DNA from: Candidatus Omnitrophota bacterium
GTDB taxonomy: Bacteria > Omnitrophota > Gorgyraeia > Gygaellales > Profunditerraquicolaceae
DNA length: 42,167 bases
Direction: 5' to 3'
Assembly (NCBI GenBank): GCA_026416665.1
Contig: JAOAET010000040.1
Span: 1 to 42,167 of the forward strand
Position numbers and translations under genes: made by a program. This document shows, piece by piece, positions 23,354 through 27,361 of the stretch. The notes under the pieces are model-generated. The model saw only the letters and a program-made list of their open reading frames with translations, made no database searches and was not told the DNA's origin. Within the stretch, counting starts at the first letter, position 1. Each line of letters opens with the position of its first letter.

Positions 23354-25366
23354 TTACTGTGCAATTAAATTTTTTATTTCTGCAATGTGCCTTTGTGCCT
23401 CCTGCTGTCCACGAATAGCAAAATCCTCTGCGCGGTGAAGCTCCATCCAATGCAACCCAGTTGTATCAGGATGTAGCACCACATCCGCTAGCTGTGTTTC
23501 TTTTTTGGCAACCTCTGATTGCATAATCTCAAAACTAGAAAAGATAAAATCAAGTATATTAGTGCTCAGTTGCTTACGCAAGTATTCTTTTAGGCTAAAC
23601 CACTGTCTCTTTTTAATAGTTTGGACCCCCTCCGTAAAATCTTGTTTTGATTTTTCAATACGCTTTAGGATATCTTCTCTGTCTGGAGTAAGATTTACTG
23701 CGATAATTTTAGATACACCCATCTCCACCAAAACTTCTGTAGGAACAGGACACATTACTCCTCCGTCAAAAAGCATTTCTCCTTTTTTGGTAAAAGGTGC
23801 AAATACCCCAGGCATAGAGCAACTGGCCATAATAGCATCAATAATAAGCCCTCTATCAAATACAATTGGCTGTTTTTTCTTTACATCGGTAGCTACAATT
23901 TTAAGTGGTATCTTTACATCATAAAAAGTTTTTTCTCCAATATACTGTTTAAAAACATTATAAATTTTGTTACCTTTAATAAAACCAAGAAGGGGAAAAG
24001 TAAAATCTAAAAGATTTAAAATGTATTTGGGCTGACGAAATTTTTTTACTATTGACAGGATATCCCCAGAAGAATAACCTAATGCCCAAAGACTGGCAAT
24101 AAAAGAACCAATACTTGACCCTGAGATAACATCTATAGGGATATTTTCTTCTTCTAAAACCTTTAGCACGCCGATGTGACAGAAACCATATGCCACACCC
24201 ACACCTAAAGCAAGACCAACAAGACAGTTTCCTTCCTGACGGGCAATACGCCGTATTATTCGTGAATAATCTTCCTGGGGCCGTTCTAAAACAACACGAG
24301 CAGAAACTTTTTTTCTAATATGAGGCAAAGTAGCATAGATATCTTGATGCAATATATTTTTTATCTCTTCAGCTTTAAGTCTGAATTTATTTGATTGGTT
24401 AATAATCACTTTTATTTTAGAGATAGGAAAGGCAAATTCTTCTTTTAATACCTTAATAAGTTTTTCCGTCCTTCTTAGATTAGCTAAAGTGCTATTTGTT
24501 AATAGATGAATTATATCTGCTTGGTTAAGTATCCTTAAAATAGTTTTATCTCTTGAACTGGGTAAATCAAGAATAATAAAATGGTAGTCATTGACGAGGC
24601 GGCTTAGCACATCTACTAACATATTTGGCCAGCGTGAGTCGTTTTTTTGATAGTAAAAGTAAACACTATCTATACCCGCCTTATCTGAAATAATACAGTG
24701 TTCTAATCTCTTTTGGTCAATTACTACCTTAGATAAGTTACACATACGGCAGTGGCTGCTTATTTTTAATAATCTGGGCATGCGATGGTATTTATCCTTT
24801 TGACAAATATCTACAATAATTACCTTCTTATTAGTCTGTTGTGCGATACCAAAGGAAAGATTAGCAGCATAAACAGTTTTTCCTGTATAGGAATAAGAAC
24901 TTAAAACTGCAATAACCGTACTTTCAAAAATAGTTTTTGGGTGCAGGTCTTTACGTTTCAGACGACGAGATAAGGTGGTGCTTAGGTCAATACCCAATTG
25001 AGGGATACGCTGCAACAGGCGTAAGAAATCTTGTCGGGGAATGCTAAGTAAGACACAATCATTAAGCGCCTGGGCAGTAACAGAGTGTGGCTCTCCAGTT
25101 AATACAGAGATAATACCAAAATATTGTCCACGATGCAGGTATTCTAAAATATTAGTTCTGCCTAGCGGGTCAGTCGTTGAGATAACTACCCTTCCCCGAA
25201 GGACACAATAAAAGCCTGTTGGGGGTTGATTCTCTTTATAAATAATCTGACCCTTTCTATATTCCTCAAATTGGGCAACTGAACATAAAATCTGCCATTG
25301 ACGACTGTTGAGTTTAGCGAAAAGCGGAATTTCCTTAAGAATGTATTCGTAACTATCCTGCCTCAT
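23354..25366 (-). CDS. Three-domain protein: cyclic-nucleotide-binding fold, MinD/ParA-like ATPase, patatin-like phospholipase
   Basis: Residues about 10-135 form a cNMP-binding (CRP-type) fold, but its phosphate cassette reads 'YFGIISVLTGEPHSVTAQA', lacking the usual Glu and Arg. Residues about 150-375 resemble a ParA/MinD ATPase with a degenerate loop 'SYSYTGKTVYAANLSFG'. Residues about 383-590 are patatin-like: nucleophile elbow 'GSSIGS' (Ser about 418) and dyad 'FDGGVM' are intact, but the oxyanion motif GGGxRG has become 'GVGVAYG'. Domain order resembles bacterial NTE-type proteins. Lipid hydrolysis is plausible, and ligand sensing may be changed. ATG 25366 is preferred over TTG 25369. 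It overlaps the glycosidase gene by about 14 bases. Confidence 0.82.
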   Translation of the reverse strand: MRQDSYEYILKEIPLFAKLNSRQWQILCSVAQFEEYRKGQIIYKENQPPTGFYCVLRGRVVISTTDPLGRTNILEYLHRGQYFGIISVLTGEPHSVTAQALNDCVLLSIPRQDFLRLLQRIPQLGIDLSTTLSRRLKRKDLHPKTIFESTVIAVLSSYSYTGKTVYAANLSFGIAQQTNKKVIIVDICQKDKYHRMPRLLKISSHCRMCNLSKVVIDQKRLEHCIISDKAGIDSVYFYYQKNDSRWPNMLVDVLSRLVNDYHFIILDLPSSRDKTILRILNQADIIHLLTNSTLANLRRTEKLIKVLKEEFAFPISKIKVIINQSNKFRLKAEEIKNILHQDIYATLPHIRKKVSARVVLERPQEDYSRIIRRIARQEGNCLVGLALGVGVAYGFCHIGVLKVLEEENIPIDVISGSSIGSFIASLWALGYSSGDILSIVKKFRQPKYILNLLDFTFPLLGFIKGNKIYNVFKQYIGEKTFYDVKIPLKIVATDVKKKQPIVFDRGLIIDAIMASCSMPGVFAPFTKKGEMLFDGGVMCPVPTEVLVEMGVSKIIAVNLTPDREDILKRIEKSKQDFTEGVQTIKKRQWFSLKEYLRKQLSTNILDFIFSSFEIMQSEVAKKETQLADVVLHPDTTGLHWMELHRAEDFAIRGQQEAQRHIAEIKNLIAQ

Positions 25367-26585
25367 CAATTAAAAGACCTGTCTTACATATGCGAGCATA
25401 AGCATACGCACTTTCACGTATAGTTCGCTGATAACTTGAATAATCAACTGCACATAAACCGAAACGTGGTTCAAAACCATAGTCCCATTCAAAATTATCT
25501 ATTAGTGACCAATACAAATACCCTTTTACTGGAACAGCTCGCTTAATTGCTTCGGAGACTTGTTTCAGATGATTATAAATATACCGCCAACGTTGACGAT
25601 CATCTAAAGTACAAATGCCGTTTTCTAAAATAATAATTGGCAGATTATATCTTTTTAAACTAAGTAATATGTTTAATAAACCCTGCGGGTATATCTCCCA
25701 ACCCATTGAGTTTTTCTCTAAGGTATTGTGTCCTTGTGCGCATTGATTATTTAGCCACTCCTTAATAGACCAACTCTGCACATCAATCAAGTGGCGAGTA
25801 TAGTAATTAAGACCAAGAAAATCAAGTTTTTTTCTTCCTACTAATTCATTAAGTATTTTTAAATTAAACATATAATGCCGAAAAGCACTCATAAATTTAT
25901 TTCTAAGGTTATTATTACAAGGCACAAAAGCTACCATGTTATGTGCAATACTTACTAAAGGACTTGGTAATTTTTTCTGACGATAGTAATTATGAATAAA
26001 CTCGTATGCCTTAATGTGGGCTTTTATTAGATTAGACAATACCTTATTTGCTTTAATAACAGAGCGCTGCTGTGGTGGCCAACGACCAGCAATAAAGGCG
26101 TAATATACATAAACCATTGGCTCATTAATCGTAACCCAATAACGAACTTTCTCTGCTAATGCCTGAAGAATCTTCTCTACATATAACAGGTAGTATCTTA
26201 CGCTATCTGAGCAATTCCACCCTCCTTGTTGGCTAAACCACAAAGGATTGGTAAAATGATGCAGGGTTATAATTGGTTCAATATTTAACGTACGTAAGTA
26301 GGACACGCAGTCATAATAGTGCTGTATCTGTTGGTCAGAAAACTTCTCAGGTTGGGGATTTACTCTACTCCATTCTATAGAGAAACGGTGACAATTATGA
26401 TTTAGTTGTTTGGCAATGTCAAAATCCTCTTTGTATTTCTGATAATGCAGACAAGCATTTCCTGAGGCAGTAATACGAGGGTTTTTTAGCTCCCAATGCC
26501 ACCAATCGGCATTGGTATTATTGCCTTCTACCTGATAAGCAGAAGTAGCTGCGCCCCAAAGAAAATCAGATGGAAAATCATTCAT
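25353..26585 (-). CDS. Glycoside hydrolase family 1 (beta-glucosidase type)
   Basis: The 410-residue TIM-barrel enzyme begins with the GH1 signature 'FLWGAATSAYQVEG'. The acid/base is E155 in 'TINEP' and the nucleophile is E321 in 'IILENG'. 'EWSRVNP' and 'HHFTNPLWF' are further active-site blocks, and 'YWSLIDNFEWDYGFEPRFG' closes the barrel. It lacks a signal peptide, so it acts in the cytoplasm on imported beta-glycosides or on an internal glycoside. It is somewhat shorter than the usual 440-450. It lies downstream of the structured RNA and its terminator, with a promoter that places the start of the mRNA only about 5 bases from ATG. Confidence 0.93.
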   Translation of the reverse strand: MNDFPSDFLWGAATSAYQVEGNNTNADWWHWELKNPRITASGNACLHYQKYKEDFDIAKQLNHNCHRFSIEWSRVNPQPEKFSDQQIQHYYDCVSYLRTLNIEPIITLHHFTNPLWFSQQGGWNCSDSVRYYLLYVEKILQALAEKVRYWVTINEPMVYVYYAFIAGRWPPQQRSVIKANKVLSNLIKAHIKAYEFIHNYYRQKKLPSPLVSIAHNMVAFVPCNNNLRNKFMSAFRHYMFNLKILNELVGRKKLDFLGLNYYTRHLIDVQSWSIKEWLNNQCAQGHNTLEKNSMGWEIYPQGLLNILLSLKRYNLPIIILENGICTLDDRQRWRYIYNHLKQVSEAIKRAVPVKGYLYWSLIDNFEWDYGFEPRFGLCAVDYSSYQRTIRESAYAYARICKTGLLIDEAG

Positions 26586-26591
26586 GCGTAT

Positions 26592-26620
26592 ATTATAACA
26601 TTGAAAAAAGAAAATCCCAA
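26592..26620 (-). promoter_or_regulatory. Promoter of the GH1 gene, overlapping the upstream terminator
   Basis: TTGGGA (26620-26615), 17 bases, TATAAT (26597-26592) on the minus strand. The -35 is part of the 3' arm of the terminator stem. Initiation near 26590 would give an essentially leaderless mRNA for the glycosidase, which has no SD. Confidence 0.5.
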
Positions 26621-26880
26621 CATCTCTGTTGGGAACAAAAAGCCGATAAAGGTAGGATAGCCCTTATCCGGCAACCCAGCCACCATATCAAGCACCTCGT
26701 AGGATAGCCTACGCTCCCGGCGCAGCGAAACCCAATATTGAAGCACCTGACACAGGTCTGTGGCTTTGCCCCGAAACTGCGCGTCGACACGCACAGGTTG
26801 GGGTCCTGGCGTATTGGTCTCATCCGAGTAATATGTCGCCAGGACGTCCCCCGATTTCTCGGGGTTTGCCTTTATCGGCT
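26603..26880 (-). ncRNA. Structured RNA with class I c-di-GMP (GEMM-I) riboswitch motifs and large insertions
   Basis: A GC-rich island closed by a 12-bp stem (26880-26869 with 26652-26641). Reading 5' to 3' on the minus strand it contains GEMM-I blocks in order: GGCAAACC (26870-26863), a hairpin capped by GAAA, GGGACG (26850-26845), CAAAGCC (26768-26762), and TATGGTGGCTGGGTTGCCG ending near 26669. P1 (GGCAA/TTGCC, 26870-26866 with 26674-26670) and P2 (AGCCAC/GTGGCT, 26765-26760 with 26683-26678) both pair. Unlike known aptamers, 76 bases forming two hairpins sit between GGGACG and CAAAGCC, and P2 is also expanded. It has its own promoter and ends in an intrinsic terminator. The GEMM relation is by motif recall; ligand binding is unproven. 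Confidence 0.72.
26604..26634 (-). terminator. Intrinsic terminator of the structured RNA
   Basis: An 8-bp stem TCCCAACA / TGTTGGGA (26634-26627 with 26622-26615), loop GAGA, followed by TTTTCTTTTTT on the minus strand. It separates the RNA from the GH1 gene and could act as the expression platform of a riboswitch. Confidence 0.85.
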
Positions 26881-26886
26881 ACTCAA

Positions 26887-26915
26887 ATTATATCATACAC
26901 CTTGTACTTTTTCAA
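26887..26915 (-). promoter_or_regulatory. Promoter of the structured RNA
   Basis: TTGAAA (26915-26910), 17 bases, TATAAT (26892-26887) on the minus strand. Predicted initiation at about 26880 coincides with the first base of the RNA closing stem. Confidence 0.8.
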
Positions 26916-26932: not shown

Positions 26933-27361
26933 TTAGTTCTTAGAAGAAGTAGAAGTAACAAGATATTTACTTAATACTGCCCACGTCTTTGGGCCGACTT
27001 TACCGTCAACAGCAAGACCATTATCCCGCTGAAAGGCTTCAATTGCTGCCTGTGTTTTAGGACCGATTTTACCATCAATAGCGCCTTTATAATAACCAGC
27101 ATTAGCAAGAGCAGTCTGAATTTCTGTAGGTGTGGGCGCATAAGGGCCGGGTGGTGGCAGAGTTTCTGTAATAGGCTGCTCTGTCGTTGAAACAACTTTT
27201 GCAGAACCCCTGGTGAGGTTACTAGTAGCTGTTTTTAGGCGATTTAGGTCCTCAGGAGACATAGGTTGTTGCATTTGTTCAAGTGTCTTCTCCTTCTTAG
27301 AACAACCCCATAAGGTAGAAATTAGACATAAGCAAAGAAGTAAACTTGTAAATTTTCTCAT
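26933..27361 (-). CDS. Lipoprotein with peptidoglycan-binding domain
   Basis: The 142-residue protein has a lipoprotein signal ('MRKFTSLLLCLCLISTLWGC', lipobox L-W-G-C), a linker of about 65 residues rich in Pro/Thr, and a C-terminal PG_binding_1 domain (about 84-136: 'IQTALANAGYYKGAIDGKIG...TQAAIEAFQRDNGLAVDGKVG'). It probably tethers the outer membrane or an envelope complex to the cell wall. SD AAAGGAGGAG is strong. The structured RNA lies directly downstream. Confidence 0.88.
   Translation of the reverse strand: MRKFTSLLLCLCLISTLWGCSKKEKTLEQMQQPMSPEDLNRLKTATSNLTRGSAKVVSTTEQPITETLPPPGPYAPTPTEIQTALANAGYYKGAIDGKIGPKTQAAIEAFQRDNGLAVDGKVGPKTWAVLSKYLVTSTSSKN

Follow-up and report, generated by a model that had tools for sequence, protein, structure and literature searches.

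A structured RNA with its own promoter and terminator

The window, that is, the whole stretch of 42,167 nucleotides analyzed here (contig JAOAET010000040.1 of the Candidatus Omnitrophota assembly GCA_026416665.1), carries a whole transcription unit on its minus strand, extending from 26915 to 26604 between a gene for a lipoprotein-like protein and a gene for a glycosyl hydrolase family 1 (GH1) protein (Table 1). The sequence comprises a promoter, a 12-bp closing stem, a c-di-GMP-I (GEMM-I) aptamer core, and an intrinsic terminator with a T-run, and the RNA predicted from it is ~240–280 nt long. Its blocks follow one another in the order GGCAAACC, GAAA hairpin, GGGGAC, CAAAGCC, and TATGGTGGCTGGGTTGCCG, and its fold is more stable than those of shuffled sequences (z = -7.5; none of 200 shuffles equally stable). 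Every element of the unit that an earlier note had described from the sequence, with a near-consensus promoter starting at a 12-bp stem, GEMM-I blocks in order, and an intrinsic terminator, was found. The next gene after GH1, at 23354–25369, encodes a single protein with cyclic-nucleotide-binding, MinD/ParA-like, and patatin phospholipase domains.

Table 1 Parts of the RNA unit and adjoining genes in the window.
Feature	Position	Strand	Basis
Upstream gene, outside the RNA: lipoprotein-like protein with peptidoglycan-binding domain	26933–27361	-	Pfam PF01471
Promoter: -35 TTGAAA (26915–26910), 17-nt spacer, -10 TATAAT (26892–26887)	26887–26915	-	Sequence, homologs
Closing stem, 5′ arm AGCCGATAAAGG; first base is the predicted transcription start; A14 = 26871, G20 = 26870, G21 = 26869	26869–26880	-	Sequence, fold, homologs
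C22 and AAA, then GAAA-capped hairpin CCCCGA-GAAA-TCGGGG (26864–26849), the GEMM-I P2 (alias P1b)	26849–26868	-	Rfam alignment, covariation
Core G42-A43-C44	26846–26848	-	Sequence, Rfam alignment; numbering of PMC3764141
Insert hairpin 1: GTCCTGGCG (26845–26837) with CGCCAGGAC (26811–26803)	26803–26845	-	Compensatory changes, fold
Insert hairpin 2: CCC (26802–26800) with GGG (26772–26770); inner stem 26796–26789 with 26784–26777	26770–26802	-	Fold, covariation, two-hairpin parse
Pocket G45-C46 and A47-A48-A49, GCAAAGCC	26762–26769	-	Sequence, Rfam alignment; numbering of PMC3764141
P3 with enlarged distal arm; receptor side ACCTGTG...TATGGT	26673–26765	-	Rfam alignment; distal-arm covariation
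TTGCC: C92 = 26671 (ligand contact), C93 = 26670	26670–26674	-	Sequence, homologs; numbering of PMC3764141
Linker GATAAGGG (26668–26661), can pair with CCTTTATC (26652–26645) as a competing local hairpin	26645–26668	-	Fold
Closing stem, 3′ arm CCTTTATCGGCT, then TTTT	26641–26652	-	Sequence, fold, homologs
Intrinsic terminator TCCCAACA-GAGA-TGTTGGGA (26634–26615) and T-run	26604–26634	-	Sequence, fold, related loci
Promoter of the GH1 gene: -35 TTGGGA (26620–26615), 17 nt, -10 TATAAT (26597–26592); ATG at 26585	26592–26620	-	Sequence, other GH1-linked loci
Downstream gene, outside the RNA: glycosyl hydrolase family 1 (GH1)	25353–26585	-	Pfam PF00232

Homologs in one class of Omnitrophota

Full-length relatives carrying both insert hairpins were recovered by BLAST from three other genomes (67–78% identity). 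A pattern describing the 3′ end, TGGCTGGGYTRCCG...CYTTTATCGG, matched 18 stretches among 84,980 species genomes, every one in Omnitrophota; the same pattern had no match in the viral contigs of IMG/VR, and a viral origin was rejected on these grounds. R1, a covariance model of this closing-stem type derived from 14 uninserted members, gave scores that split a closing-stem group (above ~72 bits, up to 131), usually with one copy per genome, from ordinary GEMM-I RNAs. R1 misses copies with long inserts, that of the window included, so that the counts of stand-alone RNAs are lower bounds.

Overall, ~80 distinct homologs were found in ~22 family-level lineages of a single Omnitrophota class. The best R1 score in 57 genomes of other classes was 70 bits, within the range of ordinary GEMM-I RNAs, and the strict pattern found nothing beyond this class in the genomes searched. 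Many genomes of the same family (e.g., in genera g13 and g29) had no detectable copy. Parsing by complementarity yielded 86 elements, or 82 once those with false or nested 5′ arms (L046, L049, L103, and L122) were dropped, as was done before terminators and downstream genes were counted; L121 is doubtful.

The source genome of the window contains 7 GGDEF matches and 6 ordinary c-di-GMP-I aptamers, and the c-di-GMP signal is therefore probably in use in this organism. A weak c-di-GMP-I match (L008, contig C19, 29.2 bits) was also seen there, as was a second match to R2, the covariance model of the insert-bearing form described below.

The c-di-GMP-I aptamer core

Scanned with the Rfam model of c-di-GMP-I (RF01051), a check that the earlier note had proposed, the window RNA matched over the full model at 32.6 bits (E = 9.8e-05 in a 401-nt stretch) against a gathering score of 35. 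This score is low because of the insert, and the alignment of the core is correct except around it. All of the 20 uninserted homologs scored above the cut-off for c-di-GMP-I or c-di-GMP-I-GGC (59.7–82.4 bits), and several insert-bearing copies reached 35–42 bits against RF01051. No second aptamer family was matched in Rfam by the window stretch, where hits to FsrA, mir-23, and TeloSII lay far below cut-off and were taken as chance.

In the numbering of PMC3764141, the GG of GATAAAGG corresponds to G20, which contacts the ligand, and G21, which pairs with C46; A47 and A48 belong to the ligand pocket, and the CC of TTGCC to C92, another ligand contact, and C93. The pocket residues G20, A47, A48, and C92 are all present in the window (26870, 26767, 26766, and 26671). 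The pairing GGCAA/TTGCC, previously read as P1, is thus not P1 of c-di-GMP-I, as its GG and CC are G20/G21 and C92/C93. Among the homologs, G20 and G21 are invariant in a set that was itself selected for GG at this site, and A47-A48 (in CAAAGCC) and C92 are nearly always retained, a few homologs lacking C at C92. The window RNA has the GAAA loop, and its tetraloop receptor reads CCTGTG in place of CCTAAG, most homologs having retained CCTAA.../TATGG. Given this variant receptor and the score below cut-off, its affinity for c-di-GMP may differ.

A two-hairpin insert beside the ligand pocket

The earlier note had also reported a 76-nt insertion forming two hairpins between GGGACG and CAAAGCC. 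The coordinates of its first hairpin held, whereas the placement did not: the insert (26845–26770) is best placed between GAC (G42-A43-C44) and GC (G45-C46), beside the ligand pocket. Hairpin 1, of 9 bp, shows compensatory changes at three pairs in four homologs, and hairpin 2 abuts it with no gap. When 12 chosen examples were folded, two adjacent hairpins filled the insert almost exactly, and an automatic parse recognized the same architecture in 27 of 28 inserts, compared to 8.7% of shuffles, the lone exception being a parse error. Over the whole structure of the four closest RNAs, including the insert and the distal arm of P3, 14 pairs changed on both sides (0 of 500 shuffles as high), and in 13 divergent inserts 89% of the cells were paired versus 75%.

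This elaboration is recurrent among GEMM-I RNAs of Omnitrophota and is not specific to the stand-alone RNA. R2 matched in 162 of 384 genomes across the phylum, other classes included. As the R2 matches listed span at least 66 nt, where an uninserted core would span ~45, well over 100 GEMM-I RNAs bear the insert; the weakest of the matches not listed may lack it. Its carriers include ordinary cis riboswitches of Omnitrophota, a GEMM-I RNA without closing stem in the complete genome G180 (1,974,201 bases), and stand-alone RNAs of other families (L017, L034, L227, L228, and L229), and it is absent from most orthologous stand-alone RNAs. The insert brings Rfam scores down to the cut-off or beneath it, and aptamers of this kind have therefore likely been under-counted in Omnitrophota.

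Other arrangements were seen as well. In a tandem GEMM-I of another class (L199, genome G273), an uninserted c-di-GMP-I-GGC aptamer precedes a second aptamer that bears the two-hairpin insert, and some other stand-alone members (L027/L044, L030, L098, L026, L054, and L045) carry extra structured sequence within the arm of the GNRA hairpin, a site unlike that of the window's insert.

Conservation of the closing stem and alternative folds

The homologs have in common a near-invariant closing stem (GCCGATAAAG/CTTTATCGGC) together with the promoter, a predicted start at the stem, the core, and the terminators. A promoter with 0–2 mismatches precedes 70 of the 86 parsed elements, compared to 6.5% of shuffled flanks; its spacer is 17 nt in 58 of these 70, and in 64 the -10 box ends 6–8 nt before the stem, which places the predicted start at the first base of the stem. 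Termination signals, either a hairpin terminator or a T-run following the stem, were found in 77 of 82 homologs, hairpin terminators occurring in 4.4% of shuffles. Stem positions 4, 5, 7, 8, and 10 hardly vary, whereas every pair of the P2 helix does; since the homologs were picked via the stem sequence, this invariance is partly a sampling effect. Compensatory changes were nonetheless seen at four of ten stem pairs (positions 1, 2, 3, and 9), and in the structures of 26 members 97.8% of the cells were paired and 11 pairs changed on both sides, a count that no shuffle equaled. The homologs of the same lineage and the covariation for which the earlier note had proposed to look are both at hand, the latter in the closing stem, P2, P3, and the insert.

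The partner of G20 in the stem is C in 85 of 86 elements, and that of G21 varies freely (C 64, T 12, A 5, and G 5). As the conserved stem reaches a base that contacts the ligand, its formation could be coupled to c-di-GMP binding via G20, and a competition between stem and ligand-bound pocket is possible. Of the two alternative folds suggested previously, the competition is in this way retained, though for a reason other than the pairing then invoked.

Linker and 3′ arm together are more stable than with shuffled linkers (mean z -1.83 over 82 sequences, which are not independent). The local hairpin between GATAAGGG and CCTTTATC in the window has 8 bp; the closing stem, with the same core, is more stable by 5.7 kcal/mol. 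In several homologs the linker folds into a hairpin of its own. A literal linker copy of the 5′ arm was considered as a family-wide rule and rejected, the best match being 5.28 of 8 versus 4.99 when shuffled and reaching 7 or more in only 12 of 82 sequences; the idea was retained for the window and its near relatives alone. According to these folding models, strand exchange is possible in the window RNA and its near relatives, without being a rule of the family.

Independence from neighboring genes

The gene downstream of the RNA varies by lineage. It is a codirectional GH1 gene at 29 loci (families f1, f4, and f7) and elsewhere encodes an RsmE-like methyltransferase, CobO, or others. A convergent gene follows the RNA at ~15 loci, where a 5′ leader is accordingly ruled out; this gene encodes alanine racemase in f17, and in f25 (L074, L051, L191, and others) the end of the RNA adjoins a convergent gene for a receiver (REC)-GGDEF (GGDDF)-MshEN protein, likely a c-di-GMP signaling protein. 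In the window, the -35 box of the GH1 promoter falls inside the 3′ arm of the RNA terminator and its -10 box ends six bases before the ATG, so that the GH1 mRNA is probably leaderless; the other GH1-linked loci are alike. A cis riboswitch is expected to be the leader of the gene it controls; here, promoter and terminator belong to the RNA itself, GH1 is served by another promoter, and other or convergent genes are found in other lineages. With downstream genes that differ or converge, the RNA is a stand-alone unit rather than a leader belonging to the neighboring GH1 gene.

Alternative explanations

The RNA might still be an ordinary cis riboswitch of GH1 in which c-di-GMP would choose among the closing stem with its T-run, the local hairpin, and the second terminator, and thereby allow read-through into GH1. 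The directly downstream, codirectional GH1 gene at those 29 loci and the alternative hairpins at the closing stem would fit, as would the tandem terminator-like structures, which resemble the c-di-GMP-I riboswitch Bc1, an aptamer followed by two terminators (PMC11218506). Unlike the Omnitrophota RNA, Bc1 forms the leader of a gene and controls the expression of that gene. A GH1 promoter past the terminator, together with the retention of the RNA beside other or convergent genes in other lineages, makes the cis reading rather unlikely. The convergent REC-GGDEF-MshEN gene of f25 would instead suit a riboswitch acting by c-di-GMP-dependent antisense read-through into its neighbor, as proposed for many c-di-GMP riboswitches, the family with the strongest antisense tendency among riboswitches (PMC9943018). 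Yet terminators come after the RNA, and the next gene is codirectional in the window and in most lineages, so that such a role appears very improbable.

The near-invariant stem sequence could also point to an sRNA acting in trans, from which the ligand would free a stem arm to pair with mRNAs, one example being the flank GATAAAGG in leaders of ordinary GEMM-I RNAs. Indeed, CCTTTATCGG is complementary to such a leader, that of L002, in the same genome. However, the 10-mer occurs only four times in the genome, twice within the RNA itself, and pairing in trans via CCTTTATCGG was rejected on this basis. Moreover, GATAAAGG is a usual GEMM-I flank in Omnitrophota and the match thus follows from shared ancestry, so that a regulatory sRNA of this kind is unlikely. 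Decay of a former GEMM-I, with a core past ligand binding in which insertions pile up freely, would explain the score of the window copy under the Rfam cut-off and the variable insert sizes, but the pocket residues are conserved, as are promoter, stem, and terminator, and the insert-bearing copies show covarying helices; we consider it highly improbable. The two-input riboswitch envisaged in the earlier note is not supported, given the absence of the insert from most orthologs, its presence in many other GEMM-I RNAs, and the lack of a second aptamer match in Rfam; no finding favors a second ligand. A more far-reaching reading, in which the two hairpins beside the pocket would make up another sensor of their own or a domain for protein binding, c-di-GMP would drive strand exchange at the closing stem with G20, and the RNA would integrate two signals and act in trans, we regard as improbable.

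A putative c-di-GMP-binding RNA acting in trans

The conserved promoter and terminators, the unrelated or convergent neighboring genes, and the Rfam matches of the uninserted homologs uphold the suggestion of a stand-alone RNA in which a c-di-GMP-I aptamer has been retained. We favor, with a probability of roughly 60%, a stand-alone structured noncoding RNA with a c-di-GMP-I core, an expanded member of a family of one Omnitrophota class, that would bind c-di-GMP and act in trans in the manner proposed for merRNA. This preference draws on the precedent of merRNA, a stand-alone c-di-GMP-I RNA of Bdellovibrio bacteriovorus proposed to store c-di-GMP (PMC3627812), on the proposal that Omnitrophota are mostly predators or parasites (PMC10066038), and on the GGDEF matches and aptamers in the genome. 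The putative RNA would act as a reservoir or buffer of the messenger; taken on its own, the reservoir role is the likeliest single function, at somewhat less than even odds by our analysis. The closing stem would keep both ends together and perhaps tune the pocket, its last conserved pair using G20, and the inserted hairpin pair and enlarged P3 would be structural elaborations rather than a second sensor. So strongly conserved a stem sequence exceeds the needs of storage, and a protein or RNA partner may be involved.

The Omnitrophota RNA shares with merRNA, as the latter is described, its stand-alone nature, a c-di-GMP-I aptamer, and the lack of a conserved downstream gene (PMC3627812), and the hosts are alike, Bdellovibrio being predatory and Omnitrophota proposed predators or parasites (PMC10066038). 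merRNA is 445 nt long and reported only in Bdellovibrio (PMC3627812); the Omnitrophota RNA, for its part, is predicted to start at a near-invariant closing stem, and some of its members carry the two-hairpin insert. The core blocks, pocket residues, GAAA hairpin, and P3 are those of GEMM-I (RF01051) and c-di-GMP-I-GGC (RF03167), families that are classed as cis-regulatory in Rfam and whose consensus has neither a closing stem with a remote 3′ arm nor a two-hairpin insert between C44 and G45.

In the literature searched, merRNA is the sole c-di-GMP-I RNA of the stand-alone kind for which a reservoir role has been proposed, and reports of it come only from Bdellovibrio. A second and far wider family in unrelated putative predators or parasites would make the holding of c-di-GMP on RNA testable as a recurrent strategy.
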